From the NCBI GenBank assembly GCA_016875215.1, contig VGRX01000009.1:1-38673 (forward strand): DNA of 38,673 nucleotides, given 5' to 3'. This DNA comes from Deltaproteobacteria bacterium (GTDB lineage Bacteria; Myxococcota_A; UBA9042; CAIXZC01). Made by a program: the position numbers and the translations under genes. The first letter of the stretch is position 1. Each line of letters opens with the position of its first letter. This document shows positions 558 through 31,425 of this stretch, piece by piece. Below the pieces are notes generated by a model. It saw only the letters and a list, made by a program, of their open reading frames with translations, did not search any database and was not told the origin of the DNA.

Positions 558-3071
558 ATGGTGCTCATCACGCTGCTGAAGTTCGCTGCCCTCGTGCTCG
601 GGCTGTTCCTGGTGCCGGGGCTCTTTCTCGCACGCCTCATCGGAAAGGGGAAACTCGAGGATGCGCCGGTCGCGGTCGCGTTCGCAGTGGGCACGAGCTG
701 GACCTGCTTCTGGGGGCTCCTGTCTACCGCACTCATCGGCCTGGTCGCTCCGTTTCACCTGTCGGCAGCGCTGCTGGCGGGGATCGCCCTTGCGACGACT
801 GCTGCCTGCATCGTTGCACTGCGCATGACCGAGGGGGGATTCGCCTTCCTGCGCGACGTCCTCGTCACCCGCATCCGCAAGGCTTTCTCACCCGGGCTCT
901 TCGCATTCCTCTTTCGTGTGTCCCTGCTCTTTCTCCTGTGCTACGACAGCCTCCTCTTCGACCAGGAACGGTGCCTGTCACGGGCCGGGATGCTCCCCTG
1001 CTTCGATTACCTCACCGCCGATCCTCCCGTCGGATTCAACGGCTGCCTCGATTGCTTCCGGGGACGCAACGCATTCCTGTTGTGGAATGGCGGACAACGG
1101 ATGGGACCTGCGGTGTTCTCGGCACCGTTCATGGCCCTGTTCGGGTTCGCCGGGTTCCGTGCCGGGCACTTCTTCTTCCTGCTGCTCACGGCCTGGTTCG
1201 GCTATCACCTGGGGCGCTCGCTCCTCGGTCCCAGCAGCCTGGGCTACCTGCTGGCCGCTGTGCTTGCGCTCAACCCTGCCGTCCTCTCGATCCCGCTCGA
1301 GGACGAGAACACCATGTGCCTCGGCCTGGGTACGGCGATGTTCTACTTCCTGCTCCGGAGGCAGCCGCAGTGGTTTCTGGGGGGCATGTTCTTCGGCCTG
1401 CTCCTGGGAATCCGCCACGTCGGGCTGCTGTCGGCCCCCGCAATCCTTCTGCTCGTGTGGTCCGCGGGCACGCCGGCCTCAGACGATACCGCCTGGGGTT
1501 CGCGCTGGATCGGCACGGGGCGGACGGCAGGGCTCGGCCTCTTCCTGGCGGGCACCGTCCTCTTCTCCTCCCCCTGCGGGATCACGCATGCCATCGCCTT
1601 TTTCGAGGGCCGCCCGCTCTTCGAATCGTTCATCTCCATGCCGCCGGCTACGCACTCGTTCCTGGGGTTCGAGTTCTCGATCAACGGGTTGCTCTCCTGG
1701 CCGTTCGTTCCGGAGCCGATCCGCAGCCCGTACAACGGGTTTCCGACCTTGCTGGCGTTCCCGCTGGTCCTCGTGAGAACGTTCGGGATCGTGGGAATCG
1801 CCCTGGTCCCGGTCGGGATCTGGTGGGGCCTTCGGCGGTACCGGACAGCCACGGCGGTCGGGCTGCTCTGGTTCCTCCCTCAGCTCACGATGCTGTGCAC
1901 GATGGGGAACTGGGTCGAGCCGAACAAGATGGGGGTGTACCTGAGCTTCGCGCAGCCGGTCGCCGTGGCCGTCGTGTTCGGGCTGGCGGCACTGGTGGAG
2001 ACCTATGCTCCCCTGTTGAGAGGGGCAGCCTCCGGGATGTTCGCACGGCTGATCCCTGACAACCCTGCAGCGATTCCGCGGGTCTGCCGCGTCTCCTCGA
2101 CGGGTATCTTTGGCGGCGTGACCTTGCTGCTTGCCGTGCTGCAGCCGCTCTGCGCCGGATGGGAAGCCCCGGTGGACCGGCGCAACTTCAAGGCAAGGGT
2201 TGCCTACGCGTTCGACGACTACCCGGTGACCCCGACCATGCTGGTCCGCGTGGAGCCCGACTACGCCCGCCTCGACCGGGAGCGGCTGACAAGGCGCTCG
2301 CTCCTCCCCGACTTCACGCAATGCCGCGACCTGTGGTTGCCCACCCTGCTTGCGGCGAGATGGCGCAACGTGGTCGACGATTTCTCTGCCCCGTCGTTCG
2401 CCCGGTTCCGTGAGCGGCCCAAGGATCGGTTCCACACGCTGTCCGGCGTCCCTGCGCCGCGGGAGCGCACGACGGAAGGGCTCGGGCCGCCGGACCTGCG
2501 TCGCGGCCCCCGCGTGCTGATGGCGGACCTCATGCACCACCCCGTCAGTCGGCTGCGGGACGCGATGGCGGGGGACGGCCGCAATGACGGAACGGCGACC
2601 GGGCAGACCCATGACGGCAACGCAGCCGAGTCATCCGGGCTCTCCCTGTCCGCGGGGCGGACCGTCCGGTTCGACCTCACCGTGCCCCCCGCCTCGGGAA
2701 TGCGCTTCCTTCTGCCGGGCGAGGCGTGCACGACGTCGGTCCGGGTGCACGACCGAATCGTGGTGGCAACCGACCTGGTCCTGCCCTGGACCGACGGTCT
2801 CCCGTGCCACCTGGCCGTGATTCCCGTCCGTCCCGGCTCGTACTGGGCCGCGATCTGGTACGGGCCCTATTCCTTCGACCACCTGGCGACGAGGGATGAC
2901 GTGACGTGGCTGCGTGGGGCCGACCCCGCGAACCTGTGCTTCGAGCTGCCTGAAGGCTCGATCCTGCGGGTCAACGATCTCACATCCATGGAGCCTTCCC
3001 GGTTCCACGTCTGGACCGCTCTGGCAGCTCCGGACGTGCCGGTCTGGGGCCCAATCCCGAGCTCCTACTGA
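558..3071 (+). CDS. Large polytopic membrane protein, possible GT-C-type glycosyl/mannosyltransferase
   Basis: ORF 84..3071; plausible start is ATG 558 (MVLITLLKFAALVLGLFLVPGLFLARLIG). Many TM helices, then a ~300 aa soluble C-terminal region. Family assignment is tentative and based on topology only. Confidence 0.6.
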   Translation: MVLITLLKFAALVLGLFLVPGLFLARLIGKGKLEDAPVAVAFAVGTSWTCFWGLLSTALIGLVAPFHLSAALLAGIALATTAACIVALRMTEGGFAFLRDVLVTRIRKAFSPGLFAFLFRVSLLFLLCYDSLLFDQERCLSRAGMLPCFDYLTADPPVGFNGCLDCFRGRNAFLLWNGGQRMGPAVFSAPFMALFGFAGFRAGHFFFLLLTAWFGYHLGRSLLGPSSLGYLLAAVLALNPAVLSIPLEDENTMCLGLGTAMFYFLLRRQPQWFLGGMFFGLLLGIRHVGLLSAPAILLLVWSAGTPASDDTAWGSRWIGTGRTAGLGLFLAGTVLFSSPCGITHAIAFFEGRPLFESFISMPPATHSFLGFEFSINGLLSWPFVPEPIRSPYNGFPTLLAFPLVLVRTFGIVGIALVPVGIWWGLRRYRTATAVGLLWFLPQLTMLCTMGNWVEPNKMGVYLSFAQPVAVAVVFGLAALVETYAPLLRGAASGMFARLIPDNPAAIPRVCRVSSTGIFGGVTLLLAVLQPLCAGWEAPVDRRNFKARVAYAFDDYPVTPTMLVRVEPDYARLDRERLTRRSLLPDFTQCRDLWLPTLLAARWRNVVDDFSAPSFARFRERPKDRFHTLSGVPAPRERTTEGLGPPDLRRGPRVLMADLMHHPVSRLRDAMAGDGRNDGTATGQTHDGNAAESSGLSLSAGRTVRFDLTVPPASGMRFLLPGEACTTSVRVHDRIVVATDLVLPWTDGLPCHLAVIPVRPGSYWAAIWYGPYSFDHLATRDDVTWLRGADPANLCFELPEGSILRVNDLTSMEPSRFHVWTALAAPDVPVWGPIPSSY

Positions 3072-4000
3072 CCCTGCGCCAGCTGCTCCCCCCGCACGCA
3101 ACGCACGAAATGCCCTGGTGCGACTTCGCTCTCCCGCGGCATGTCCGCTCCGCACGCTTCCTCGGCCAGGGGACAGCCGGCCTGGAACGGACATCCCGTC
3201 AGAGCCGTTGCGAACTGGGCCACCGGCCCCTTCCGGGCTGCTGCGAGATGGCGGCTGTAGGGATGGAGCACCTGGTTCCAGGTGCGAAACGCTTCCACAC
3301 GCTCCACAGCCACTCCGGCAAGCAGCACCATCGTCTTGCCGCAGAGGCGCTCGGCCTCGTCAAGCCGGTGCGTGACCCACACCACCGCCTGCTTCCGGTC
3401 GCGGGCCAGCCCGACAGCCTCCTCGAGCAAGGCCTCCCCGGTTTCGGCGTCGAGCGACGCAGTAGCCTCGTCGGCAAGGAGAACGGGGGGGCTGTGCACA
3501 AGGGCACGGGCCACCGCAACCCGCTGGCACTGCCCGCCGGACAGCGCTGCGGGGCGACGACCGTGCATCTCTCGGCCGATTCCCAGCCGTGCGAGCAGAT
3601 CCCCGGCCTGGGTCAGAGCCTTCCCCCAGGGGCAGCCGGAAAGGTGGACGAGCGGCTCGGCGACCGCGTGGATCACCTTCTGCGTGGGATCGAGCGAAGG
3701 TCGGGGGAGTTGGAGGACCAGCCCCAGCCTCCGGCGGGCTGCCCGAAGGCTGCGGCCACCGGGGAGGAGCGGCGTGCCGCCGATCTCCACCGTTCCCCTC
3801 TCCGGGCCGATGAATCCGGCCAGCGCTGCCACGAGCGTGCTCTTGCCCGCCCCGCTCTCCCCGACCACGGCCACCGATTCCCCGGGCTCCAGCCGGAACG
3901 AGAGGTCGCGCAGGGCAAAGACATCCCCATCCGGATGCCTTGCCCAGACCTGATCGACTCGAACTGCCGGGATCGACTCTGCCCGCTCGTTGTGCCCCAT
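3065..4000 (-). CDS. Oligopeptide/dipeptide ABC transporter ATP-binding protein (OppF/DppF-like)
   Basis: Walker A GESGAGKST, signature LSGGQCQRVAVARAL, Walker B VLLADEATA, H-loop WVTHR; C-terminal Cys-containing tail (TGCPFQAGCPLAEEAC) typical of the oligo_HPY domain. Confidence 0.88.
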   Translation of the reverse strand: MGHNERAESIPAVRVDQVWARHPDGDVFALRDLSFRLEPGESVAVVGESGAGKSTLVAALAGFIGPERGTVEIGGTPLLPGGRSLRAARRRLGLVLQLPRPSLDPTQKVIHAVAEPLVHLSGCPWGKALTQAGDLLARLGIGREMHGRRPAALSGGQCQRVAVARALVHSPPVLLADEATASLDAETGEALLEEAVGLARDRKQAVVWVTHRLDEAERLCGKTMVLLAGVAVERVEAFRTWNQVLHPYSRHLAAARKGPVAQFATALTGCPFQAGCPLAEEACGADMPRESEVAPGHFVRCVRGEQLAQGQ

Positions 4001-4135
4001 CCTTCCCTCTTCTCCCCGCAGGTCGGGCGCAGAGCACCCTCCCCCAGGATCTTCGCTCCGGTCAGGACCCGTGCCCTTGGGAGGCTGCACAGAATCACTT
4101 CGCCGTTACGACCTCACTTGGCGAAGCAGTTTCGA

Positions 4136-4834
4136 TCAGCCTCCTTGCTCCGTCCGCTCCTCCCGGTCCGGGCCCGCCCTGGGCGTCGAATCCTCCTCCC
4201 GACCGCCGGCAGCGAACTCCGCCGCCAACCCGAACCACCGCCGGCCGCCGGCCCCGAGGTGAAGCCTGTGCTCGATCCGGGCCGCGGCAAGCAGCTCCGG
4301 GTCGTGCGTGGCAATCACGTACGCCGACGACTGCCGGCGCACCAGCTCGACCGCGCTCCAGCGCACCGACGGGTCGAGCCCGGCGGTCGGCTCGTCGAGC
4401 AGCGTCAGCGGAGCCCTTGCCGCCAGCACGGCGGCCAACAGCACCCGCTTGAGCATCCCAGCCGAGAGTTGGTGCGGATAGAGGGCCAGGACGTCGACCG
4501 TCAACCCGAGCGCCGCCAGGTTGGATTCGAGGTTCGCGGTCCACTCGACCTTGGTGCAGAACCTACGGGCATCGAGTAGCTGCCCCCGGAGACGACGGTA
4601 GGAGGAGAATGCGGCCAGCGCATCCTGGACGCCGAGCACGACGGCCCCGGGGAGCTCGAGCAGGCCGGAGACGGCGTGCGGCGAGACACCCGCCATTCCT
4701 TCGAGCACCGAGGTCTTGCCCGTGCCGCTCGCACCCGAGAGGAGCATCCGATCGTCCGGACATTCGAAGCTGACCGGAGGGACCAGGGCTGCCCCCCCGT
4801 CTGCGGTCACACTGAAGTGAAGCGCCCGGATCAT
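4136..4834 (-). CDS. ABC transporter ATP-binding protein (OppD/DppD-like, short)
   Basis: Walker A SGASGTGKTS, signature LSAGMLKRV, Walker B LTLLDEPTAGLDP, H-loop VIATHD. Start taken at MIRALHF; adjacent to the DppF-like gene. Confidence 0.82.
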   Translation of the reverse strand: MIRALHFSVTADGGAALVPPVSFECPDDRMLLSGASGTGKTSVLEGMAGVSPHAVSGLLELPGAVVLGVQDALAAFSSYRRLRGQLLDARRFCTKVEWTANLESNLAALGLTVDVLALYPHQLSAGMLKRVLLAAVLAARAPLTLLDEPTAGLDPSVRWSAVELVRRQSSAYVIATHDPELLAAARIEHRLHLGAGGRRWFGLAAEFAAGGREEDSTPRAGPDREERTEQGG

Positions 4835-4901
4835 CGTTCGCTCCTCTGCCCCGGCAATCGCCGGGAGTCCCCGCAGCAGCGGCAAGCCTCCAATCCCCCT
4901 C

Positions 4902-6254
4902 TCACTTGCCGCTCCTCTGCCCTGCAAGCCGCCGCGCCAGCTCCTCCCCCAGCAGGTTCAAACTCCACGCCAGCATCAGAACCGTCCCCGCCGGCGCCAG
5001 CAGCAGCAGGGGTGAATCGGCCATGTGTGCAACCCCTTCTCCCAGCAGGATTCCCAGCGACGGATACGGGGGCTGGATGCCGAACCCGAGGAAGGACAGG
5101 AACGCCTCCTCCAGCACCAGCGCCGGGACCAACAGCACCGCATACGCGGAGATCGGCAGCACCGTGTTCGGGACGATGTGACGCGCCACGAGCCGAATCG
5201 TCGAGAATCCCATCCCGGCCAGGCTCCTGACGAACGGCGCCTCCTTGAGCGAAACCGCCAGCCCCCGGGCGTAGCGGGCCAGCGAGAACCACTGCACCGC
5301 ACCCAGCGCAGCAAACAACAGCACCGCCTGGGCCAGCGCCGCGGATTCGGCCTCCTGCCACCGCATCTTCAGCACGTCCCGGGAGAAGACCGACAACAGG
5401 ATCACCAGGAAGATGAACGGGACGCTCTGCAACACCTCGAGCAGGCGCAGGAACGCACGGTCTGCAGCCCCGCCCACGAGCCCGCTCAGCAGACCGAGCA
5501 GCGTCCCGAGGAGCAGGCTCACGGTGGCAGCGGCCAGCGACACGAGCATCGACACGCGCAGGCCGTACAGGAGCCTGGCCAGCAGGTCCCGCCCCAGCGA
5601 ATCGGTCCCCAGCAGGTGCGTGCGGGTCCGAGGCACGCCGACAAGCTCCTGCCGCGAGATCCGCCCGTCCAGGTCCTGGTCGAAGCCGGCAGCATCCAGT
5701 CCGTCCAGGGCCAGGAAGGCCGTCCCCAGCGCCCACTCGTCACGGGAGACCACCCGATCCGAATCGCGGTCGAGCGCTGCCGCCTCGAGCCTGTTCCGCA
5801 TCCGCTCAGGGACTCCGGCCAGCGCCGCATCCCACCCCTTCCGGTCGGCGCCGGACCGCCCCCCGGCAGCCTCGAATGCCCGGCGCATCTCGGAGGCCAG
5901 CCCCGGCAGCTCCTCCAGCTCGGGGCAGTAGTAGCGTCCACCTGCGGACCGTGAGCACGCAAGGACATCGTCGCCGTCCGAGTCGAGCGCGTCCATGAGC
6001 GCATCGTCCGCCAGGTAAGAGCGCGGGTGCGGCTCGACCGAGACGCCCCCCGGTGCCAGCAGGGGCGACAAGGGATCGGGCTGGTCGTACCGGAAGCCGG
6101 CCACGCGGCTCGACAGGGGACCCGCCAGCGCTGCGACCAGGATCAGGCTGCCAAGCAGCACTGCAGGGATGCAAAGCCCCCCGCGTCTTCCCGCAAGGGC
6201 CAGCCCCGTCTCGAGGACGCGGGGACCCGTCGCGTTCCGGGCGGCAGCGCTCAT
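4902..6254 (-). CDS. Opp/DppC-like ABC permease with inserted EF-hand segment
   Basis: Start MSAAARN (ATG 6254) overlaps the stop of the upstream permease. Permease core ...TDSLGRDLLARLLYGLRVSMLVSLAAATVSLLLGTLLG...EAPFVRSLAGMGFSTIRLVARHIVPN... ; periplasmic-loop insert with DRDSDRVVSRDE and DQDLDGRISRQE. Confidence 0.88.
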   Translation of the reverse strand: MSAAARNATGPRVLETGLALAGRRGGLCIPAVLLGSLILVAALAGPLSSRVAGFRYDQPDPLSPLLAPGGVSVEPHPRSYLADDALMDALDSDGDDVLACSRSAGGRYYCPELEELPGLASEMRRAFEAAGGRSGADRKGWDAALAGVPERMRNRLEAAALDRDSDRVVSRDEWALGTAFLALDGLDAAGFDQDLDGRISRQELVGVPRTRTHLLGTDSLGRDLLARLLYGLRVSMLVSLAAATVSLLLGTLLGLLSGLVGGAADRAFLRLLEVLQSVPFIFLVILLSVFSRDVLKMRWQEAESAALAQAVLLFAALGAVQWFSLARYARGLAVSLKEAPFVRSLAGMGFSTIRLVARHIVPNTVLPISAYAVLLVPALVLEEAFLSFLGFGIQPPYPSLGILLGEGVAHMADSPLLLLAPAGTVLMLAWSLNLLGEELARRLAGQRSGK

Positions 6255-7195
6255 GGCCCCCTCCGACTGCCTTCGAGCCGCTGCCGAGGATCGAGGAACG
6301 AATGCAGCGTCTCGAACACGAAGTTGCAGAGCATCAGGAGCACGGCATAGACCAGTATGGCGGCCATCACCAGCGTGTAATCCCTGCCCTGGGCTCCGTG
6401 CACGAAGCATGCCGCAGCCCCGGGAATCTCGAAGATCGCCTCCACGACGAACGACCCGGTCAGGATCCCGGCCACCACCGGCCCAGCATAGTCGAGCATC
6501 GGGATGAGCGCGGACGGTACTACGTACCGCCAGAAGATCCGAATCCGCGGTACCCCCCGCGCCGCGGCCGCTATCCACATCCCTTCCGACATCCGCTGCG
6601 CGACGTTGGCCCGGATCAGGCGCTGGAACACGGCCCCCGACGAGATCCCCAGCGTCAGCACCGGCAGCAGCTTGTTGCGCCAGGAATCGAACCCTCCCAG
6701 CCGCAACGGCGACCCGGGCTGGCCGAGCAGCTCCCGTCCCAACGCCCCCAGCACGATGAGCGAGGCCGAGATCACCGCCAGGGAGATCCCGCTGGTCACC
6801 CGATCGAGACTACCCCCCGGCCTCCGACCCGCGGCCAGCCCCGCCGCTGCCCCGACCAATACGGCCACCAACAGAGCCCAGAACCCCAGCTCCAGCGACA
6901 CGGGGAGCGCTTCCGACAGCACCTCGCCGACCGTACGGCCCGGTGCGAAGCTCAGGCTTGGCCCCAGGTCCCCCCTGAGATACCCCGACAGCGTGACGAA
7001 GTACTGCTCCCACCAGGGACGATCCAGCCCGAACCGCCTCTCCAGGTTGGCCAGCGTCTGCTCGGGCAACCCCTGGATCCGGTCGAACGGCCCCCCCGGG
7101 GCGAGGCGCATCAGAGCGAAGCTGGCCGAGTACACCAGCACGAGAACGGCCAGGGCCGCTGCCAGCCGGGCCGCAGCCATGCGCAGCCCGCTCAT
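6251..7195 (-). CDS. Opp/DppB-like ABC permease
   Basis: MSGLRMAAARLAAALAVLVLVYSASFALMRLAPGGPFD...; EAA-type loop AAARGVPRIRIFWRYVVPSALIPMLDY; GLDRPWWEQYF motif typical of DppB/OppB. Confidence 0.88.
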   Translation of the reverse strand: MSGLRMAAARLAAALAVLVLVYSASFALMRLAPGGPFDRIQGLPEQTLANLERRFGLDRPWWEQYFVTLSGYLRGDLGPSLSFAPGRTVGEVLSEALPVSLELGFWALLVAVLVGAAAGLAAGRRPGGSLDRVTSGISLAVISASLIVLGALGRELLGQPGSPLRLGGFDSWRNKLLPVLTLGISSGAVFQRLIRANVAQRMSEGMWIAAAARGVPRIRIFWRYVVPSALIPMLDYAGPVVAGILTGSFVVEAIFEIPGAAACFVHGAQGRDYTLVMAAILVYAVLLMLCNFVFETLHSFLDPRQRLEGSRRGP

Positions 7196-7202
7196 GAACG
7201 GA

Positions 7203-10200
7203 CTAGTCGCGGGTGGGCGCATCGACGACCTCGACCGCCAGCCCGGCAAGCCGCCTGGCGGAGGAGAGGAACTGGGCCAGCCCGGCATAGTCATCCGGAG
7301 ACACCGCAACCGGGGCTGCCGAGGCCCGCTTGGTCAGCCGAAGCCTGTCCCCGCTGTTCTCCACCTGCAGATCGATCCTGCCGAACTCGCAGTCCAGCTC
7401 CTGTTTGCCCGCGGCCACGACGAAGCGGCCGGCCTCGGTCTCGAGCTCGATGTCCAGCTCGATGTCGTAGAAGCCCGGGAAGTAGAGAGGGGATGTCCGG
7501 ACCGGGAGCTGGGTGAACTCCCGGGCCGGAATCGGCGGCATCAGCAGCAGGAAGCGCTCTTCGGCCGTCGGAGAGCGGGCGAACTCCACGCCCAGCACGG
7601 CCTTGCGCCCCCGGATGTCGAACCGGGCCTGCTCGACGTGCACCTCGGGCAGGACCTGGCCCAGCACGCCTGCTGCCAGCCGTTCCACCTGCTCCGCTGC
7701 CCCGTCCGCTTCTCTCCGGAGCTCGGCCGCAGCCTGCCCCATACCCCCGATCTCCAGGTGCCCGGCCAGCGCCCCGTCTCCGTCTATCGTCCCCCTCACC
7801 ACGATCTTCCACGAATCCACTGCACCTGCCCTGGGAAGGGTCACGAAGAGCCTGGGGTTCAGGGGGGTGAGAACAAGTCCGGGGCGCCCCGCGAACGACC
7901 GCCGCAACTTCCCCGGCGGCGACAGCGGATCATAGGGGTCGAACCACGCCGGCTCCCTGCCCCCAACATAGACCACCGTCCCATCGAATCCGGCCAGCGA
8001 AGGACGCAGGAGATCCAGCGGTGGGGCCGCTGCCGAGCTCACCGCGACCAGGTGAGCGTCCAGCCCGGCCTGGAGCATGGCACAGTACACTGCCAACACG
8101 CCGCTCCCGCTCCCCGTCTCCAGCGTCTGTGAGAAGCTGCGCGACAACACCCCAACCCCGGAATCCACCTCCACCCGCGCCAGCACCTCACGATAGAGCG
8201 CCTCGGCGGACCCCCTCCCGGACCGGAATGGCGAGGGGACGTCGCAAAGCCTTCCCGCCTTGTCCCCGACGCCATCGCGTAGCCGGGTCCAGTCGAGACA
8301 ACGACTCGTCACCTCGACCATGGAGACCCCCGCCTCGGGGTCCGGGCACCACGGCTCGGCCGGCACCGGCGCCACCTTCCGGCGAACGAATTCCCACTTC
8401 CCGGACCTTGGAGCACCGACCTCCACCTCGCCGTGCCGGTGGAACACCAGGTCGGCCCCGCCGTGCACGACCACGTAGCGGGTCAGGAACACCGGCAGAT
8501 CCCGGTGGCCGAAATAGAACGGAGGGAGTCGGAGACAGCCCCCGAGCGAGTCGGCCTGCAACTCCCGGACCGTCCGGCGCAGGACGAAGTCGCCGGGTGC
8601 GAGCCCGGGCAGGGAGATCGTGTCCTTGCCGGCCCCCGAGGCACCGGTCTCTTCGGGCCCCCGCCAGCTCCCGTCTGCCTTGCGAACCGCGAGCTCCAGC
8701 AGCTCCTCGTCCGCAGCCAGGCTGATCTCCCCCACCGATTCCGCCGCATCCGGGGATTCCAGGTGAGTCAGGGTTGTCAGGACCAGCGTGAACCAGCCGT
8801 TGCGGGATGGGACGGCGATCGCCTCATCCAGCACCACCACCTGCGGCATGTCGTGGCCGAACCCGGATTCCAGGTAGGCCTGGACCGCCTCCTCAGGGTC
8901 GGTCCAGTCGCTTCGGGTCCGCTCCCAGGTGAACAGCCGACCCGCTTGAGACCTGATCCCTCCCATCGCGGCCGGATGGTCCCGCAGCGCCTCGCCCAGC
9001 AGGGCAGCCCGGGCGGTCTTCCCGCGGGACAGCCACCAGTCCACCAGCATCCAACCGACCGTGAGATCGCTCGCGGACAGCCGGAGCAACGCTTCCTCGA
9101 CCGCCGGGTCGTCCCCGGACAGGAGCGACGGCAGGAGCCGCAGGCGGAAGGTCCGGCCCGCATCCCGGAAGAGCTCGACCGCGTCCTCGCTCTTCGGCCG
9201 GCCGGCAAAGGGACGGAGGAGCCGCTCCACCCCTTCGCACACTACGGGCAACGATTCCGCAGCCGGGATCTCCGAGCGTTCCAGGCGACGCGACACCCAT
9301 CGTGTCAGGACCTCGCAGTCCTGCGGATACCGGCTGAAAGCAGCCTCGACGTATTCGTCGAGCAATGGGGTCCACTGGCGGCTCAACGCCAGCTCCGCCT
9401 GCACGAGCAGCCCGTCCGCGGTTTCGAGGCAGGCCGGGTCTGCGTCGTTCAGAATCGTCTCGGCAGCCTGGTCCTCACCGTTTCCCAATCGGGTGCGCAC
9501 AGTGTCGAGGAGTGCTCGGCAGGTACCTTCGCCAGGCCCACCGGGGGCCCGATTCCCCGCCTCGGAAGCGGCGGTCGAGGCGGTCGCCGAGCCGGCAGCC
9601 GCTCCGCCCCGTTCCGAGTCCTGAACCAGAGTCCACCGCCGCAACGCCGGGCCCGCCGCTGCGGACCCTTGCGCGGACTGCGCCCCCCCGCCGGCCGGGG
9701 GAGCCTCGACCGCGGCATCCCGGGGCAGAATCCGGATCTCGGGAGGCAGAGTGGTCAGAACCGCCTGGATGACGTCCAGGAAGTGCTCTCCCGCAGCGAA
9801 CCGCACGGACAGGTAGAGGTCGCTCCCGCCCCCGGCCGAACGATCGCTCACGGCCAGGGCCTCCCCGTCGAGCCACACCGACGCCGGGTTGGGAAGCTCC
9901 AGGTGCAGGTACAGCACCTCGTCCCCTCGCACGGTGAAACGGAACCGCGTCGTCTGTACGGTCCCGAGCCAGGCCGGGCCGGGCGGATCCCCAGGCGGCG
10001 CCACCGGAACCGCGGACAGGGCGGTCACGACCGGAGCGGACGACATCGACGTGCGACCGGCAGCAGGGGAAAGACGCAACGGCTCCATCGACGCCACGGC
10101 CGCGTCCCTGTACTTGAGCCCTGCACCGTGGGCCAGCGCATGCATCCGGTAGACGTGCGCGGCGTCCAGGCGCGTCCTGGCGGCTCGCTCCGAAAGGAAC

Positions 10201-10460
10201 GCAACCCGGCCATCCAGCGGGCAGCGCTCGAGCCACTCCTCGAGCTGAATGGCAGCGGACCTCGCCCTGCCGTCGTCCTCCGCCAGGTAATCCGCCCAGA
10301 GCCCGCATGCCTCGCCCAGATCCATCCGGTCGAGAGCCTCGAGCGCCGCATTCTCCTGCGCCGCGGCAGCATCGATCCACGCGACCGCTAGCGCCGCGAC
10401 CGCAGCAGCCGCAAGCACACCCGACCTCCAACGGACCCCGGGGGAGGTTTCACTTCTCAT
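7203..10460 (-). CDS. Large secreted protein, transglutaminase-like paralog lacking recognisable catalytic Cys/His
   Basis: Signal-peptide-like N-terminus (VLAAAAVAALAVAWIDAAAAQE). Architecture parallels the next upstream gene, but the catalytic region reads TGSGSGVLAVYCAMLQAGLDAHLVAVSS and FDGTVVYVGGREPAWFDPYD. Confidence 0.72.
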   Translation of the reverse strand: MRSETSPGVRWRSGVLAAAAVAALAVAWIDAAAAQENAALEALDRMDLGEACGLWADYLAEDDGRARSAAIQLEEWLERCPLDGRVAFLSERAARTRLDAAHVYRMHALAHGAGLKYRDAAVASMEPLRLSPAAGRTSMSSAPVVTALSAVPVAPPGDPPGPAWLGTVQTTRFRFTVRGDEVLYLHLELPNPASVWLDGEALAVSDRSAGGGSDLYLSVRFAAGEHFLDVIQAVLTTLPPEIRILPRDAAVEAPPAGGGAQSAQGSAAAGPALRRWTLVQDSERGGAAAGSATASTAASEAGNRAPGGPGEGTCRALLDTVRTRLGNGEDQAAETILNDADPACLETADGLLVQAELALSRQWTPLLDEYVEAAFSRYPQDCEVLTRWVSRRLERSEIPAAESLPVVCEGVERLLRPFAGRPKSEDAVELFRDAGRTFRLRLLPSLLSGDDPAVEEALLRLSASDLTVGWMLVDWWLSRGKTARAALLGEALRDHPAAMGGIRSQAGRLFTWERTRSDWTDPEEAVQAYLESGFGHDMPQVVVLDEAIAVPSRNGWFTLVLTTLTHLESPDAAESVGEISLAADEELLELAVRKADGSWRGPEETGASGAGKDTISLPGLAPGDFVLRRTVRELQADSLGGCLRLPPFYFGHRDLPVFLTRYVVVHGGADLVFHRHGEVEVGAPRSGKWEFVRRKVAPVPAEPWCPDPEAGVSMVEVTSRCLDWTRLRDGVGDKAGRLCDVPSPFRSGRGSAEALYREVLARVEVDSGVGVLSRSFSQTLETGSGSGVLAVYCAMLQAGLDAHLVAVSSAAAPPLDLLRPSLAGFDGTVVYVGGREPAWFDPYDPLSPPGKLRRSFAGRPGLVLTPLNPRLFVTLPRAGAVDSWKIVVRGTIDGDGALAGHLEIGGMGQAAAELRREADGAAEQVERLAAGVLGQVLPEVHVEQARFDIRGRKAVLGVEFARSPTAEERFLLLMPPIPAREFTQLPVRTSPLYFPGFYDIELDIELETEAGRFVVAAGKQELDCEFGRIDLQVENSGDRLRLTKRASAAPVAVSPDDYAGLAQFLSSARRLAGLAVEVVDAPTRD

Positions 10461-13400
10461 CGACCACCCCCTCGACCCCTGCCAGGGCCGCCCGAAGCTG
10501 CTGCACCAGCCGCCGGAACGCGGGGTACCGCTCCACCGGAACCGAACGGCTCCTCTGCTCCAGCCTCAGCTCCAGCCGGGCCCCGCCGTCCGGAAGCGCC
10601 TCGACCTGGAGGGTAAACGCGGCATCCTCCTCATCGGCGGCCTGGAAGATCCCGACGGGCATCCGCACCGTTCCCGGATGGAGATCCAGCCGCACTTCCT
10701 GCACGTATCGGTAGCCGAACACGAGCACCTGCTTCCGCTCCGGCAGCGATGTCGCCCGCGTCAGGGCCTCCAGGTCAGGGGTCAGCCTCAGGACCGACCC
10801 CGGAGCAACCCAGCTGCCCGAGACCGCGATGCGAAGCTCGGGGACCGGTCCGCAGGTCAGCTCCTCCTCGATCCCCGTGATATCGGCCCCGGGCAGATAG
10901 TCCGCCAGGTAGGACTCGAGCTCTCCCTCCCATGCGCCCCGGTTCTCCGCAATGGATTGGACCCGCCAGACGAACTGACCGGTGAAGCGGATCTCCCCGG
11001 CAAAGAGCATCGGACTTCCGGCCGATACCGAGAGGTCCAGCACGGAACGATTGTCCTGTGCGGGCCCCTCCCGGAAGACGACCTTGCGGGGCACACGGGA
11101 ATCCAGGATGACGCCCCCTCCCCCCTCCACCTGCCAGGGGACAAGCCCCAACCCCACGAACCTCGAGGTGGGATCGAAGAAGACGTCCAGCTCGTCCAGG
11201 TACGCGATGGCATGGTCGTAGGAGGTCGGAGCACCAGGGTCCAGCACCTCGGCCCCCAACGCCACCGTGCTCGCAGCCACGACGTGCGCCGGAATCCCCG
11301 CCTCGGCCAGGAGCGTCACCAGCAGCAGGCTCTTGTCCTTGCAGTCGCCGAACCCGCGACGGAACACCTCGGCCGGCGGGTAGGGCTTGAGCCCGTGAAC
11401 ACCGAACTCCAGACCGACATAGCGCACCTCGTCGGCCACGTATCTGCAGATCGCCTCGGTCAACGCCGTGCGGTCGCCTCCGGTCTCCCCGGCCAGTCGG
11501 GCCACCAGGCGCTTCATCGAGGCATCACCGCCGACTGCCGGCGAGACGACCGGCGCGTACCATCGGGCGAAGTCCTCCCAGGTGGCAAGCGTCGAGTACT
11601 CCAGGTGGGCCGTGCTCCTGAAGCGTCCCGGCCCCAGCGGCTCGTCGGCCTGCGCCGGAATGGGACCGAAACGGAGCCAGTGCACCACCCCCTCCTCGCC
11701 CGAGGTCACGTCCTGCTCGACCGTCAACCCTACCGAGTCCGGTCCGGCTCGATGGAAGAGGTCGGTCCCGGGCGGCATCGAGATCTCGACCTCCACCCCG
11801 TGCTTCGGGTAGTCGGCCTGCAGCCAGACGACCCCGGAGAACGGCGTCCGCAGCGGGGACGGAGACGAGTCCACCCCCCAGGCAGCCACCGCGACGTCCC
11901 CGGCAGCCAGCGCGGGAAACGTGAAGGTCACCTGCCGCATGTCGTAGTACAGGTTGAACTCCTCCTCGCTCACTCCGATGTCACCGTACGGAACCGCCAC
12001 CGGCTTCGAACCGTCCGCCCGCAGCACCGCGGCCCTCAGCACCGTCGCCTCCTCGAGATAGGAATCGTACGCCACGCCGAGCCTCAACCTCCCTTCCTCC
12101 ACCGGAGCCAATGCCTTGACCGCAACCCACCGTTCGAGCTGCCAGGCCCGGTTCGGGTGCGCCATGATGTGGGTTCGGTCCATCACCCCCACGAGACGCT
12201 GCACCCCGGTTGCCGGTACCGATGCAGCTACCCTCCGGATCTCGTCGTCAGAGAACCGCGGGCGGAGAACATCCCCTTCCGACTGGAGCCTCGCCAGCAA
12301 CCCTCGGAGGTTCCGGTCCTGCGGATGCAGGCGCAGCACCCGCTTCCAGAGCGCAAGCGCCCTCTCCCGGTTGCCGGCCCGGTAGTGGAACTCGGCAGCC
12401 CGCTCCAGCAGGTACGGATGATGCGGCGCCCACGCTTCGAGGCTGCCGTAGAGCTCTGCCGCACGGGCCTGCTCCCGCGCAGTCTCGAGCCCGGAGGCCA
12501 GCACGTGTCTCAGGAACGGCATCGTCGGGAAGAGCCAGTTGAGGCGCTCCGCCAGCTTCACCTCTTCGGACGCTCGGCCGAGCTTCTCCAGCAGGAAGAG
12601 CTGGGTGGCTGCCATCTCGTAGTCCCCGGGCCACTCCTCGAGGTAGCTGCCTGCCAGGTCGGAAGCCTCCTGGTAGCGCTCCTGCTCCGAGAGCACCTCC
12701 GACAGGGCGGACACCAACGCCGGGACCTTCCCTGCACGGGCCAGCGCCGCTCGGAGCATCTCCTCCACGTGCAAGCTCAACCCGCTGGCCGACAGGGGTT
12801 CCCTGGCGACCAGAGCGGCCTGCGCTTCCAACTCGGGAGTCAGGCAGGCACGACCGCCGTCCGGGCACAGACTCCGCAGCTTTCCCAATCCATCCAGCAC
12901 ACGTCCGGCCCGCAGGAGGTAGGCCGCGTGGGAAAGCACCATCTCCGGGCGATCGCCCCACACGGCATCCCCGCGGGACAGGACCTCGTGCAGCACCGGG
13001 CTCCCTTCCAGGCACTCGATCGCTTCGAGCCACTCGGGCAACGTGTCCAGCTCGGCCTCAGCCACCAGGGACTCCGCACCGTCGCCGCCGTACCCTGCCC
13101 CGGAAGCCCGCTCCAGGAAGCACGCCAGCAGCAGCTTCTCCGTCGATTCGGGCAGCGAATCGAGGGACTGCCGGACGGTCACCCCCTCCACCGACTTGCT
13201 CTTCCTGCCCGTGGACGAGCTTCGGCCTCCTTTGCCCGAAAGCGGCAGCTCGCCTCCGTCCGGCCGGGTCAGCCGGGCCGCCACACGCACCGGCGCAGCC
13301 TGCGGAAGAAAGCGCAGCTCCACCCGGGTCGTTCCCGGTGCCAGCCGACAGAAAACGACGTGCTGATCCCAGAAGAAGCTGGTGTGCGGCTCCAACGCCG

Positions 13401-13986
13401 TGCACTCTCCTCCGACACAGACTTCTTCGAGATCCGCGGCGGAGACACGGAGCGCAACCGGGGCCTCCGACCGGACCGCCACGTCCGCCCAGATCAACAC
13501 CGGCTCGCCGGGGGGAAGCTCCAGGAAGTCAGCCCCCCGGACCTCCCCCGAGATCGGGTCGGCCGGAAGCTCCGCCTCCTCCCCTTCGGGAGTCCGGATC
13601 CGCCACGTCCGGATGAACCCGAGCCGTGCCGTCAGGCGGGAAGCGTCCTCCCGCCGACCGGCAACCCGCTGCTCCAGCGCCATCCGCCGATCGAGCACCT
13701 GCGCAACCAGCGGATGCTGCCCCGACGCCCGTCGCCAGCGGCCGAACATCTCCAGGCACCGGGCATGTCCGACCCCCAGGCAGAGGGATGCCGCCTGCTC
13801 CACCACCAGGACTCCGACGGCCTCTCCTCGCAGACGCAGGAAGCGGGCATCCAGCGCATCGAGCCTCGGCTGAGCGCACAACCCCTCCCCTCCGGCAAGC
13901 ACAACGCAGACCAGTGCCGCCAGCCGCGAGACGAGAAGTCCCCGGCCGCGGCCCGGTGCACCGGCTACCGACAGCGTCTCTTCCAT
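10450..13986 (-). CDS. TPR-containing exported protein with DUF3857-like and transglutaminase-like domains
   Basis: Start at MEETLSVAG with signal-like region; TPR-like HHPYLLERAAEFHYRAGNRERALALWKRVLRLHPQDRNL; transglutaminase core RRGFGDCKDKSLLLVTLLAEAGIPAHVVAAST, then YDHAIAYLDELDVFFDPTS (Cys/His/Asp triad present). Confidence 0.82.
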   Translation of the reverse strand: MEETLSVAGAPGRGRGLLVSRLAALVCVVLAGGEGLCAQPRLDALDARFLRLRGEAVGVLVVEQAASLCLGVGHARCLEMFGRWRRASGQHPLVAQVLDRRMALEQRVAGRREDASRLTARLGFIRTWRIRTPEGEEAELPADPISGEVRGADFLELPPGEPVLIWADVAVRSEAPVALRVSAADLEEVCVGGECTALEPHTSFFWDQHVVFCRLAPGTTRVELRFLPQAAPVRVAARLTRPDGGELPLSGKGGRSSSTGRKSKSVEGVTVRQSLDSLPESTEKLLLACFLERASGAGYGGDGAESLVAEAELDTLPEWLEAIECLEGSPVLHEVLSRGDAVWGDRPEMVLSHAAYLLRAGRVLDGLGKLRSLCPDGGRACLTPELEAQAALVAREPLSASGLSLHVEEMLRAALARAGKVPALVSALSEVLSEQERYQEASDLAGSYLEEWPGDYEMAATQLFLLEKLGRASEEVKLAERLNWLFPTMPFLRHVLASGLETAREQARAAELYGSLEAWAPHHPYLLERAAEFHYRAGNRERALALWKRVLRLHPQDRNLRGLLARLQSEGDVLRPRFSDDEIRRVAASVPATGVQRLVGVMDRTHIMAHPNRAWQLERWVAVKALAPVEEGRLRLGVAYDSYLEEATVLRAAVLRADGSKPVAVPYGDIGVSEEEFNLYYDMRQVTFTFPALAAGDVAVAAWGVDSSPSPLRTPFSGVVWLQADYPKHGVEVEISMPPGTDLFHRAGPDSVGLTVEQDVTSGEEGVVHWLRFGPIPAQADEPLGPGRFRSTAHLEYSTLATWEDFARWYAPVVSPAVGGDASMKRLVARLAGETGGDRTALTEAICRYVADEVRYVGLEFGVHGLKPYPPAEVFRRGFGDCKDKSLLLVTLLAEAGIPAHVVAASTVALGAEVLDPGAPTSYDHAIAYLDELDVFFDPTSRFVGLGLVPWQVEGGGGVILDSRVPRKVVFREGPAQDNRSVLDLSVSAGSPMLFAGEIRFTGQFVWRVQSIAENRGAWEGELESYLADYLPGADITGIEEELTCGPVPELRIAVSGSWVAPGSVLRLTPDLEALTRATSLPERKQVLVFGYRYVQEVRLDLHPGTVRMPVGIFQAADEEDAAFTLQVEALPDGGARLELRLEQRSRSVPVERYPAFRRLVQQLRAALAGVEGVVDEK

Positions 13987-14729
13987 TCGTACATGGCCAG
14001 CGCTGCCGCCACGTTTGCGTTGTACGATTCGATGCCCTGCATCGGCAGCGCCACAACGGAGATCTTTACATGCTTCGTGCAGATCAGGCCACTGGTTTGT
14101 GCGAGCCCCCCGCCTTCCTGGCCCACCACGAGACCTGTCCGCTCCGGAAACTCGAATCCGGCCACCGGCTCCCCCCGGGCATCCAGGCCTACCAACTCCA
14201 GGCCGAGCCCCTGGAGCCGAGCCGGGTCGTCGATGGGATGCAGCGGCAGCTTGAATACCGCCCCCGCCGAGGTCCTGACCGACTTCGGATGGAACGGATG
14301 CGCACACGACGGCAGGAGGAACGCTCCCGAGGCCCCCAACCCCGCAGCGGTCCGTATCACCGCCCCTACGTTGATCGGATCCTGGAGCGGAACCACCAGG
14401 TAGAGCCCCTTGGCCAGCGTCCCGGACGGCTCGCGGATCAACCCGTCGACGGCCGCGTCCAGCATGGGTTGCCCCGTTCCGAAACGGTCCAGCTCGGAAA
14501 ACAGGCCCCGGGCAAGCTCATGCCGCCGGATCTCCGGGCCGCCGGGCAGCTCCCCATCGAATCCCTCCGGCACGATCCAGGCCAGCCGCTCAGGCGGCTG
14601 CGAGTTGGCCACCTCGCGGCAGATGCGGGCCCCGCAGACCAGGGTGCGCCCGGTCCTGCGCACCTCCCCGTCCGCCTGGCGCCGCCACGTCTTGAACCGG
14701 GAGTTGGATGGGCTCTGGATGGCTGTCAT
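13965..14729 (-). CDS. SpoU/TrmH-family RNA 2'-O-methyltransferase
   Basis: Motifs LQDPINVGAVIRTAAGLGASGAFL, GLVVGQEGGGL, LPMQGIESYNANVAAALAMYEW; start at MTAIQSPSNSRFK. Confidence 0.85.
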   Translation of the reverse strand: MTAIQSPSNSRFKTWRRQADGEVRRTGRTLVCGARICREVANSQPPERLAWIVPEGFDGELPGGPEIRRHELARGLFSELDRFGTGQPMLDAAVDGLIREPSGTLAKGLYLVVPLQDPINVGAVIRTAAGLGASGAFLLPSCAHPFHPKSVRTSAGAVFKLPLHPIDDPARLQGLGLELVGLDARGEPVAGFEFPERTGLVVGQEGGGLAQTSGLICTKHVKISVVALPMQGIESYNANVAAALAMYEWKRRCR

Positions 14730-14814
14730 CGTTCGACCCCGTGCAGGCCGGCCGCTGTCCACCGCACCCGTTGATGCGCTGAGAGCCTCCGGCCCACTGC
14801 TCGCTGCCCACTGC

Positions 14815-15525
14815 TCACTTCTTCCTGTACACCACCAGCCTGCGCCCGCTTGCGGTGCCGGGAAGCAAGTAGGCATGGTCCGCGACCTCGGCGAACTCAC
14901 GGCCCAACGCCCGGCCCGCAATCACCTTCTCCGCGTCCACCGCAGGCCCCTTCATGAAGATCACCAGCCCTCCGGCCGGCAGGAAGGGGCGGACTCGCCG
15001 CAGAGTCTCGCGAATCCCCTCGACGGCCCGGGTGATCACGCCACCGACCGCCAGGTCGAAGCCCTTGTCGATGCTCCGCTCCACGGCCGTCAGCCCCTGG
15101 AGCGCCAGGTCGGCGCAGACCTCCTTGAGGAATGCAGCCTTCTTGCGCTGCGCCTCGGCCAGCACCACCTCGGTCTGAGGCGACGCAATCTTCAGCGGCA
15201 CGCCGGGAAAACCGGCCCCGCTTCCGAGATCGAGCAGCGGCGACGGGAGGCGGGGCAGGTAGCGCAGCACCAGGAGGCTGTCCACGTAGTGCTTCAGCAC
15301 GATGTCCTGCAGGGTCCAGATGCGCGTCAGGTTGTGCGACCGGTTTGCCTCGACGAGCCGATTGTGGAAGCGTGCGAGCCGCTCGACCTGGTCCCCCGCC
15401 AGGTCGATTCCCCGCTCGGAGAGCATGAGGGCGAGCGTCGCTGCGTCCGCCCGGGGATCCCCGGCATCCTGCTCCATGCGCCGCTGCCGGCCTTGTCTCG
15501 AACGGAGCTCGTCCAGATCCGCCAT
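14815..15525 (-). CDS. rsmG: 16S rRNA (guanine-N7) methyltransferase RsmG (GidB)
   Basis: FHNRLVEANRSHNLTRIWTLQDIVLKHYVDSLLVLRYLP...LLDLGSGAGFPGVPLKI, characteristic RsmG motifs. Confidence 0.92.
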   Translation of the reverse strand: MADLDELRSRQGRQRRMEQDAGDPRADAATLALMLSERGIDLAGDQVERLARFHNRLVEANRSHNLTRIWTLQDIVLKHYVDSLLVLRYLPRLPSPLLDLGSGAGFPGVPLKIASPQTEVVLAEAQRKKAAFLKEVCADLALQGLTAVERSIDKGFDLAVGGVITRAVEGIRETLRRVRPFLPAGGLVIFMKGPAVDAEKVIAGRALGREFAEVADHAYLLPGTASGRRLVVYRKK

Positions 15526-15668
15526 TCCAGCCCCCCATCGGGGCATGCCCCGACCCGCATCGCATGAAACAGTTCCGGCCTTCTGCCCGGATTGTCGCGG
15601 CCGTTTGCCGTGCTTGCCTCTCTGCCGTTCTCTTTCCCCGGCCCCTGGCCCCCGGCCCCCGTTTCGAC

Positions 15669-18347
15669 TTAGCCTTGCAGGGATGCCAGGTGCTCCTTCA
15701 GCCCCCGGAGCTTCCCTTCCAACTCTTCCTTCTGGTCTTCCTGCTCTTCGATCACCTCGACCGGCGCCTTCTCCAGGAAACTCGGGTTTGCCAGCTTGCG
15801 CGTGATCTGGTCGTGCTTGACCTGGAGCTTCTCCACCTGCTTGAGGAGCCTTGCGACCTCTTCATCGATGTCGATGACGCCGCCCAGCTCGACGAAGACG
15901 GTGGCCTGGCCGGTCACGGCAGCCCCCGACTTGCCGGGGCGGTCGGCCGCCACGTCGATGACGAGGTTCTGCACACGGCCCAGCCGCAGGATGAACTCCC
16001 GCCCCCACTCGATGCTCTCCGCCCCCTTTGGACTCGACGGCCGGATCACGGCGTCGACGAACGCGGACGGAGGAACGTTGTTCTGCGAGCGGACGGAGCG
16101 GATGGCTCCAATGGCATCGATGACCGAGACGAACCGCTGCGCCTCTTCACCGAAGTCGAGAGCCGGCTCGGGCCGGGGCCACCGGGCGATGGCGATGGAT
16201 TCCCCGTCGCGGGAGGGCAGCATCTGCCAGATCTCCTCGCTGATGTACGGAGTGGCCGGGTGCATCATGCGCATCACGCGGTCCAGCACGTAAACGAGCA
16301 CGTCCCGAGTGACCCCTTTGGCCCCCTCGTCCTCCCCGTAGAGAGACGGCTTGGCCAGCTCCACGTACCAGTCGCAGAACTCGTGCCACACGAACTGGTA
16401 GAGCCCCGCCGCGTACTCGTTGAACCGGTAGTCGGCAAGCGCCTGCTCGGTCTCCTCTGTCACCTTCTGGAGCCTCGACAGGATCCACTTGTCCTGGACG
16501 GTGAGCCGATCCCGGCTCTCCAGCGGCGACTTCCACACGTGGTCGTCGGGGAGGTTCATGAACACGAAACGCGCCACGTTCCAGATCTTGTTCATGAATG
16601 CCCGATACCCGGAGATCGTGTCGAGCGAGAGCTTCAGATCCCGGCCCTGGACGGTCAGCGCAAGCAGCGAGAACCGGAGCGCATCGGCCCCGTGCTGAGA
16701 GCACACGTCGAGCGGGTCCACCACGTTCCCCTTGGTCTTCGACATCTTGTGCCCGTGTGCGTCCCTCACCATGGCATGCAGGTAGACCTCCCGGAACGGG
16801 ACGTCCCCCATCAGCTTCATCCCCATCATGATCATCCGGGCCACCCAGAAGAAGATGATGTCGAAGCCGGTCTCCATGATCGCATTGGGATAAAAGGTCT
16901 CCAGCGCACGGGTGCGCTCCGGCCACCCGAGAGTCGAGAAGGGCCAGAGCCCGGACGAGAACCAGGTATCCAGCACGTCCCCGTCCTGGGCAATGCGGTT
17001 GCTGCCGCAGAATGCGCAGGCGGTCGGGTCCTCGCGGGTCACCGTGACCTCGCCGCACTGGGCGCAGTGCCAGGCCGGAATGCGGTGGCCCCACCAGAGC
17101 TGGCGGCTGATGCACCAGTCGCGGATGTTGCGGAGCCAGCGGAAATACTCCGCAGTCCAGTGAGGCGGAACGAACCGGATCCGCCCGTCCTCCACGGCCT
17201 TGATTGCTGCCCCCGCGATCGATTCCGGATCCTCCGGCGGGCCCATCTTCACGTACCACTGCCACGATACCTTCGGCTCGATCATCACGCCGCTGCGCAT
17301 GCAATGGCCGACGGAGTGGGTGATGGGCTCGATCTTCTCCAGGTACCCCCCGGCCTCCAGATCGTCCACAACCGCCCTGCGGGCCACGAACCGCTCCAGC
17401 CCGCGGTACTTCTGCGGCACATTGTCGTTCAGCGTCGCATCGTCGTTGAGAATGTCGATGAACGCCAACTGGTTGCGCACTCCGCACTCGAAGTCGTTGG
17501 GGTCGTGCGACGGAGTCACCTTCACCGCCCCCGTTCCCCGGGTCGGATCGGCCAGGATGTCATCCGCGATCACGGGAATGGTGCGCCCCGTCAAGGGCAG
17601 CTCGACCTCGCGGCCGACGAGATCCCGGTACCGCTCGTCGGTCGAATGCACCGCCACCGCCGTGTCTCCCAGCATCGTCTCGGGCCGCGTCGTGGCCACG
17701 ACCACGAAACGCCCCGCCTCCCCCACCACCGGGTAGCGGATGTACCAGAAGCTGCCGCCAACCTCCTTGTGCTCCACTTCCAGATCCGACAGCACCGTCC
17801 GGATCGCAGGCGACCAGTTCACCATGCGCCGGGCCCGGTAGATGTACCCCTGCTCGTGCAGGGTCACGAAGGCCTCGCGGACCGCGCGTGACAACCCCTC
17901 GTCCATCGTGAAACGCTCCCGCTCCCAGTCCACCGAAATGCCCAGGCGGCGCGACTGCTCGGTGATTCGGCCATGGTACTGGCGCTTCCACTCCCACACC
18001 TTCTCCAGGAACTTGTCCCGGCCGAGAGCCTCACGCTTCACCCCTTCCGCCGCCAGCTTGCGCTCCACCAGCATCTGCGTGGCGATGCCCGCGTGGTCCG
18101 TGCCCGGAAGCCACAGCGTGTTGAACCCGCACATCCGCTTCCAACGGATGATGCAATCCTGGATCGAATAGGTCAGCGCATGCCCGACGTGCAGCGCCCC
18201 CGTCACGTTCGGTGGCGGAATGACCAGGCAGAACGGCGGCCTCTCGCTGACGTCCTGCGCGTGGAAGTACCCCGCGTTCACCCAGCGGTCATACCACTTC
18301 GGCTCGACCTTCTCATGCTCGTAGCTCTTGTCCAGTTCCCGTGCCAC
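15669..18347 (-). CDS. valS: Valyl-tRNA synthetase
   Basis: PPPNVTGALHVGHAL (HIGH variant), GHKMSKTKGNVVDPLDV (KMSKS), C-terminal coiled coil. The ORF opens at 18404, but a GTG at 18347 (VARELDKSYEHEKVEP) has an adjacent GGAGG. Confidence 0.95.
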   Translation of the reverse strand: MARELDKSYEHEKVEPKWYDRWVNAGYFHAQDVSERPPFCLVIPPPNVTGALHVGHALTYSIQDCIIRWKRMCGFNTLWLPGTDHAGIATQMLVERKLAAEGVKREALGRDKFLEKVWEWKRQYHGRITEQSRRLGISVDWERERFTMDEGLSRAVREAFVTLHEQGYIYRARRMVNWSPAIRTVLSDLEVEHKEVGGSFWYIRYPVVGEAGRFVVVATTRPETMLGDTAVAVHSTDERYRDLVGREVELPLTGRTIPVIADDILADPTRGTGAVKVTPSHDPNDFECGVRNQLAFIDILNDDATLNDNVPQKYRGLERFVARRAVVDDLEAGGYLEKIEPITHSVGHCMRSGVMIEPKVSWQWYVKMGPPEDPESIAGAAIKAVEDGRIRFVPPHWTAEYFRWLRNIRDWCISRQLWWGHRIPAWHCAQCGEVTVTREDPTACAFCGSNRIAQDGDVLDTWFSSGLWPFSTLGWPERTRALETFYPNAIMETGFDIIFFWVARMIMMGMKLMGDVPFREVYLHAMVRDAHGHKMSKTKGNVVDPLDVCSQHGADALRFSLLALTVQGRDLKLSLDTISGYRAFMNKIWNVARFVFMNLPDDHVWKSPLESRDRLTVQDKWILSRLQKVTEETEQALADYRFNEYAAGLYQFVWHEFCDWYVELAKPSLYGEDEGAKGVTRDVLVYVLDRVMRMMHPATPYISEEIWQMLPSRDGESIAIARWPRPEPALDFGEEAQRFVSVIDAIGAIRSVRSQNNVPPSAFVDAVIRPSSPKGAESIEWGREFILRLGRVQNLVIDVAADRPGKSGAAVTGQATVFVELGGVIDIDEEVARLLKQVEKLQVKHDQITRKLANPSFLEKAPVEVIEEQEDQKEELEGKLRGLKEHLASLQG

Positions 18348-30822: not shown

Positions 30823-31422
30823 ATGGAAGCAGACCTGCTGAGCAACGACAAGGCCCTGCTGGCTCGATTCCGGCAGGGGGAAAGGGAAGCGCTGATGCTG
30901 GTATGGAACCACTACCATCCCCTCGTTCACGGCCTGGCGTGCCGGGGTTTTGGCTCCTACCGCGGCTTCCGGTCCCCGTGCGATGTCGACGACACGGTAT
31001 CGGGGGCGTTCCTTGCCGCGTTCGAGGAAGGCTGCCGGCAACGCTACGACGGGATCATCCCGTTCGGCAGCTTCCTGCTCGGCATCGGCCGCAATGTGAT
31101 GCGAAGACAGATCAAGAAGGCCGCGCGGGAACCTGCCATCGAGCCGATGCCTGCCCAGGAGCAGTTGGACCCGGGATCGACCCCTGAAGAGCTCGTCCTC
31201 AAGGCCGAGGAGCTGGAGGTGCTGGGCCGATTCCCCGCGACCCTGGCCCACGAGGAGCAGGACGTGTTCTTCGGGCACTACCGGGACGGGCTATCCGAGG
31301 AACGGCTGGCCGTTCACCTGGGGCGCACCCGGCACGTCGTGAGGAAGTGCCTGCACCGAGTGGGCCGGGCCTTCCGGCGCTTCCTTCGGGATCACGGCCT
31401 TGCGCCGGATCAGGTGGGGTGA
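30823..31422 (+). CDS. ECF-type RNA polymerase sigma factor
   Basis: Sigma2-like DVDDTVSGAFLAAFEEGCRQRYDGIIPFGSFLLGIGRNVMRRQIKKAAREP; region 4 HTH LSEERLAVHLGRTRHVVRKCLHRVGRAFRRFL. Confidence 0.85.
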   Translation: MEADLLSNDKALLARFRQGEREALMLVWNHYHPLVHGLACRGFGSYRGFRSPCDVDDTVSGAFLAAFEEGCRQRYDGIIPFGSFLLGIGRNVMRRQIKKAAREPAIEPMPAQEQLDPGSTPEELVLKAEELEVLGRFPATLAHEEQDVFFGHYRDGLSEERLAVHLGRTRHVVRKCLHRVGRAFRRFLRDHGLAPDQVG

Positions 31423-31425
31423 CCC

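Follow-up and report, generated by a model that had tools for sequence, protein, structure and literature searches.

The closest described counterpart of the locus studied here is the OppABCDF peptide importer, with which it shares two BPD_transp_1 permeases and two ABC ATPases encoded in the order B-C-D-F, NCBIfam scores that are highest for OppB and OppC types, and a binding protein of the cognate clade, found in the sister genera G001 and G002. The unit in the window differs from OppABCDF in that OppA is encoded outside the operon, an EF-hand insertion is present in OppC, the ATPases are short, and a pair of transglutaminase-like genes stands upstream. Opp binding proteins encoded away from their permeases have been described in Borrelia burgdorferi, in which OppA4 and OppA5 are on separate plasmids; there, however, several oppA genes stay at the permease locus, which has no transglutaminase genes (PMC5736914). 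For the two large exported proteins of the window, here named TgA and TgB, one comparison is BDI_1141 of Parabacteroides distasonis (PDB 3kd4), which combines DUF3857 with a transglutaminase-like domain as TgA does, but is a single protein whose solved chain of 505 residues is too short for the TPR part. Another, likened by description, is with TgpA of Pseudomonas aeruginosa (PMC3507681) and the LapG-type periplasmic proteases, which like TgA belong to the transglutaminase-like superfamily of the Gram-negative envelope.

The window, by which we mean the whole stretch of 38,673 nucleotides analysed, comes from a draft genome (G000; 5.9 Mb in 857 contigs, 94% complete) of f1, a family of uncultured Myxococcota whose remaining members (G001 to G003) are likewise drafts. 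Six genes run along its minus strand from 13986 to 3065, with starts set by a simple codon-usage caller and inspection: tgA (10450..13986), tgB (7203..10460), oppB (6251..7195), oppC (4902..6254), and two ABC ATPase genes, one DppD-like (4136..4834) and one DppF/OppF-like (3065..4000). The first two overlap by 11 bp, tgB and oppB are 7 bp apart, oppB and oppC overlap in an ATGA, and the ATPase genes follow after gaps of 67 and 135 bp. The sequence-only reading had drawn this six-gene unit with the same coordinates and junctions, and all six open reading frames were confirmed; to them can be added, further upstream on the same strand, genes for a SpoU-family RNA methyltransferase (13965..14729; PF00588) and the rRNA methyltransferase RsmG, or GidB (14815..15546; PF02527), whose order is kept in G001 and G002. 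Since rsmG and spoU lie directly upstream, with the start of tgA overlapping spoU by 22 bp, a single transcript may cover eight genes, from rsmG to the last ATPase gene. Such co-transcription is what we infer for the unit, with spoU probably sharing a transcript with tgA and the genes after it, and rsmG the probable first gene. A scan of positions 2900-16000 gave no sigma-70-like site and no terminators above chance, and is uninformative for this organism. At the other end of the unit, a gene for a multi-pass membrane protein with no Pfam match (558-3071) is convergent with the operon and ends on its last gene.

TgA (1178 aa) is predicted by Pfam, alignment and AlphaFold to consist of a beta-sandwich, TPR repeats, DUF3857 and a transglutaminase-like domain, the last two corresponding to Pfam matches to DUF3857 and Transglut_core. 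The name Tgl was avoided, as it already belongs to an unrelated lipoprotein of Myxococcus xanthus. TgB (1085 aa, with an N-terminal signal-like segment) has no Pfam match; it is a paralog of TgA, with which it aligns over 940 columns in profile-profile comparison (probability 100%, E 3e-46). The predicted catalytic triad of TgA is Cys882, His925 and Asp938, and Cys-His-Asp is kept in 91 of 91 aligned TgA rows. At the catalytic position, by comparison, cysteine is present in none of the 53 aligned TgB rows, and in the TgB of the window both Cys and His are replaced. As judged from its sequence, TgB is a pseudoenzyme, and the description of the first two genes as a transglutaminase protein and its pseudo-transglutaminase paralog, made from the sequence alone, is borne out as to domains and catalytic residues. 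Hydrophobic N-terminal segments suggest that both proteins are exported. The AlphaFold models (mean pLDDT 78.7 for TgA and 74.2 for TgB, pTM 0.60 each) contain TPR helices and further beta domains, and for both the best fold match in the PDB is 3kd4, a "putative protease" (E 1e-19 and 2e-18, respectively), which the TgA profile matches in sequence as well. The transglutaminase fold takes in proteases, amidases and crosslinkers. We know of no substrate or activity for DUF3857 proteins of the TgA kind, nor of any DUF3857-TPR architecture or pseudoenzyme twin among TgpA and LapG-type proteins, and the open-access literature searched yielded no known function for DUF3857-transglutaminase proteins.

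The transporter genes had been read from the sequence as Dpp-like, which proved correct as to their domains and less so as to their subfamily. Pfam finds BPD_transp_1 (PF00528) in both permeases and ABC_tran (PF00005) in both ATPases, but the permeases score nearer Opp than Dpp, with best NCBIfam matches of the OppB and OppC types that fall below equivalog cut-offs (for OppB, OppB/Opp2B, together with a sub-threshold match to PF19300). The DppD-like ATPase is short (232 aa; Walker A GASGTGKT, signature LSAG), while the DppF/OppF-like one (311 aa; Walker A GESGAGKS, signature LSGG) has a Cys-rich tail and matches PRK11308/OppF in NCBIfam; the H-loop is present in both, and PF08352 (oligo_HPY) has no matches in G000. 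OppC (450 aa) contains, before the LGTDSLGR motif, an insertion with two canonical EF-hand loops, DRDSDRVVSRDE at residue 162 and DQDLDGRISRQE at residue 192, which are predicted to bind calcium. Phylogenetically, it falls inside a 32-row OppC clade (support 96/93). All rows of this clade that are long enough to span the insertion, except G046_L059, have from one to three EF-hand loops there, after the first transmembrane segment and ahead of the LGTD-type motif, whereas the outgroup OppC proteins lack such loops. Within this clade, the OppC of family f1 groups with those of families f6 and f12 (99/92). The clade is Myxococcota-wide (window 4902-6254 and the OppC of L033-L065), and we found no paper on it; it raises the question of whether peptide import in Myxococcota is under calcium control.

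A comparison of the neighbourhood among related genomes, which the sequence-only reading had proposed, showed that the tgA-tgB-oppB core is kept in three genera of family f1, in all of which tgB and oppB either overlap or are separated by 7 bp. In G002, a single contig carries rsmG-spoU-tgA-tgB and the start of oppB, with tgA and tgB overlapping by 4 bp and oppB starting inside the end of tgB. G001 presents the same order over three contigs, of which one carries an aminoacyl-tRNA-synthetase-like gene followed by rsmG-spoU-tgA, the second tgA-tgB and the start of oppB, and the third oppC-oppD-oppF opposite the same membrane-protein gene as in the window. The arrangement is therefore not a matter of chance, and its repetition in both genera indicates that the core is old in the family; identity to the TgB of the window is 38% in G001 and 30% in G002. 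As the G002 contig breaks off within oppB, the oppC-D-F part is documented for G000 and G001 only. In G003, tgA-tgB is followed by an alkyltransferase-like gene, and a search of this draft genome gave neither an OppC nor an SBP_bac_5 match.

No SBP_bac_5 gene lies within the window, so the observation that the operon has no binding-protein gene stands; its extension to an importer without a binding protein was set aside, as G001 and G002 encode a cognate-clade OppA away from the operon. Each of these two genomes encodes one further SBP, with a glycosyltransferase neighbour and no permease nearby, and in a tree of 43 SBPs these orphans fall inside a 33-row OppA clade (support 100/99) that holds all SBPs directly upstream of EF-hand-type oppBC. 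Across the EF-hand OppC clade, OppA is often adjacent, just upstream; in families f6 and f12, the SBP is on another contig than oppBC, and the importer has no adjacent TgA-TgB pair. The one SBP_bac_5 match in G000, on contig 218, adjoins permease genes of its own, has counterparts in G001 and G002, and is placed far from the 33-row clade. This other SBP-permease cluster (L002, L069 and L070) has FHA-like, MutL-like and glycosidase-like neighbours and is kept in the family. Neither a cognate-clade OppA nor its neighbourhood was found in the G000 draft with the family model, the G001 protein or the glycosyltransferase and SerS neighbours as queries; the SerS contig of G000 is broken and its synteny differs, so that either an assembly gap or a loss of the gene may lie behind this result. 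Most simply, oppA would have become separated from oppBC before the TgA-TgB pair joined, so that the pair would not have filled the place of a vanished OppA.

Outside the family, tgA-tgB tandems were found throughout the class. A scan of named genomes recovered 80 TgA-like loci from Myxococcota, Acidobacteriota, Planctomycetota and Aminicenantes; at 41 of these, the next gene downstream matches TgB. The tandem, of about 1200 aa per protein, is kept in four or more phyla amid changing neighbours (L160-L239 and L114-L131), and a conserved neighbour that would betray its function was sought in vain, the 51 upstream and 55 downstream neighbours having no dominant family. OppB or OppC was near the pair at none of the 80 named loci, and at one an SBP of the contig-218 type lay about 6 kb away on the opposite strand. 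As the pair is widespread without any transporter, it did not evolve as part of the importer of the window, and TgA and TgB, which mostly occur without Opp genes and in G003 without any Opp match, are not parts of the transporter. A second link to Opp genes was found in G004, of family f2, in which oppA, tgA and tgB are consecutive (L142:2437-11833), downstream of a MacB-like gene. Here the end of oppA and the start codon of tgA overlap in a 4-bp ATGA and tgA and the start codon of tgB in a GTGA; the EF-hand oppBC genes are on another contig. Because the TgA of G004 and that of family f1 do not group together, the arrangement seems to have arisen by a joining of its own; on the same ground, and because the OppA grouping is weak (82/62), an ancestral oppA-tgA-tgB-oppBCDF operon common to both lineages is not supported. 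Given about 1.5 SBP genes in each genome, we roughly put the chance of an SBP standing beside one of about 50 pairs at 1-3%. With this independent occurrence in a second lineage, it is plausible that the pair is linked to peptide uptake, which to that extent upholds what had been proposed from the sequence alone, with the difference that the pair is not an evolved part of the importer.

The explanation we favour, to which we assign a probability of roughly 0.45, is that the unit encodes an Opp importer whose OppA has moved elsewhere, joined in an operon to a TgA-TgB pair that prepares peptides. The pair probably acts on periplasmic peptides: TgA, once exported, would cut or modify peptides or cell-wall peptides at a papain/transglutaminase-like Cys-His-Asp site, and TgB, exported and lacking the catalytic Cys, would be its pseudoenzyme partner, serving as scaffold, substrate holder or regulator. 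OppA would then capture the peptides and hand them over to OppBC, with the EF-hand loops of OppC on the outer side, and the two ATPases would drive import by ATP. What TgA does chemically, how TgB contributes and the feeding of the importer by the pair are put forward as parts of a model, and functional coupling is suggested by the two operon links. In support, tgB and oppB overlap or nearly touch in three genera in which TgB identity has fallen to 30-38%, and the model further draws on the catalytic residues of TgA, the Cys lost from TgB, the clades of OppC and of the orphan SBPs, and the fold match to 3kd4; against it stand the many pairs without Opp genes, the f6 and f12 importers without a pair, the G003 pair without OppC or SBP matches, and the OppA ortholog not found in G000. 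Almost as likely, and ranking just below, is co-transcription without shared function, by which the pair would have an envelope task of its own and oppBCDF would have ended up downstream within a housekeeping rsmG-spoU operon and stayed there, in one family, by drift. Such a history fits the occurrence of the pair across four or more phyla, with varying neighbours and without the transporter, the existence of the importer without the pair and of the G003 pair without an Opp match, and the presence in the same run of rsmG and spoU, whose function is unrelated to either. It does not readily account for the second, independent oppA-tgA-tgB with its ATGA and GTGA overlaps, nor for a close tgB-oppB junction kept over deep divergence.

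Other readings carry far less weight. That TgA and TgB stand in for the binding protein and pass substrate directly to OppBC, the strong form of what the sequence-only reading had entertained, is unlikely, and we regard it as the least probable of all. The operon does have no SBP, the sole SBP_bac_5 match in G000 belongs to another clade with its own permeases, and tgB sits directly 5' of oppB, where several other families have oppA; but G001 and G002, with the same operon, have a cognate-clade OppA elsewhere, sister families with a split OppA have no TgA-TgB pair in its place, no binding-protein fold is among the Foldseek matches listed for the two proteins, and G000 is a draft in 857 contigs. 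Scarcely more probable is a scheme of shared regulation only, in which the pair modifies envelope proteins by crosslinking or deamidation and Opp, in the same phase of growth, recycles the peptides that the wall releases. The operon data agree with it as they do with the favoured peptide-preparation model, the breadth of the fold noted above would allow such chemistry, and enterobacterial OppABCDF imports murein peptides; the unit, however, is without peptidoglycan-binding or wall enzyme genes. Somewhat less improbable than either, if still doubtful, is a broader proposal in which TgA-TgB would be a general periplasmic peptide-processing machine of enzyme and pseudoenzyme, present in at least four phyla, that in some Myxococcota is physically coupled to the EF-hand Opp so that cutting and uptake are channelled.

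We found no description of a tgA-tgB-opp operon in the open-access literature searched, and as far as we found the pair itself, widespread as it is, is so far unstudied and undescribed. Its two independent operon links to Opp genes provide a first testable hypothesis for the function of DUF3857-transglutaminase proteins, namely periplasmic peptide processing, and an enzyme that several phyla have kept together with its pseudoenzyme is an obvious subject for biochemical work. Elsewhere in the window, a run of genes after a PAS-histidine kinase gene (30823-33854) encodes a sigma-70-like factor, a zinc-finger anti-sigma-like protein and a caspase-fold (Peptidase_C14) protein, and a putative lipoprotein of 1041 aa (34350-37475) combines a Kazal inhibitor, a MopE-type metal-binding region and Dictyostelium CTDC repeats.
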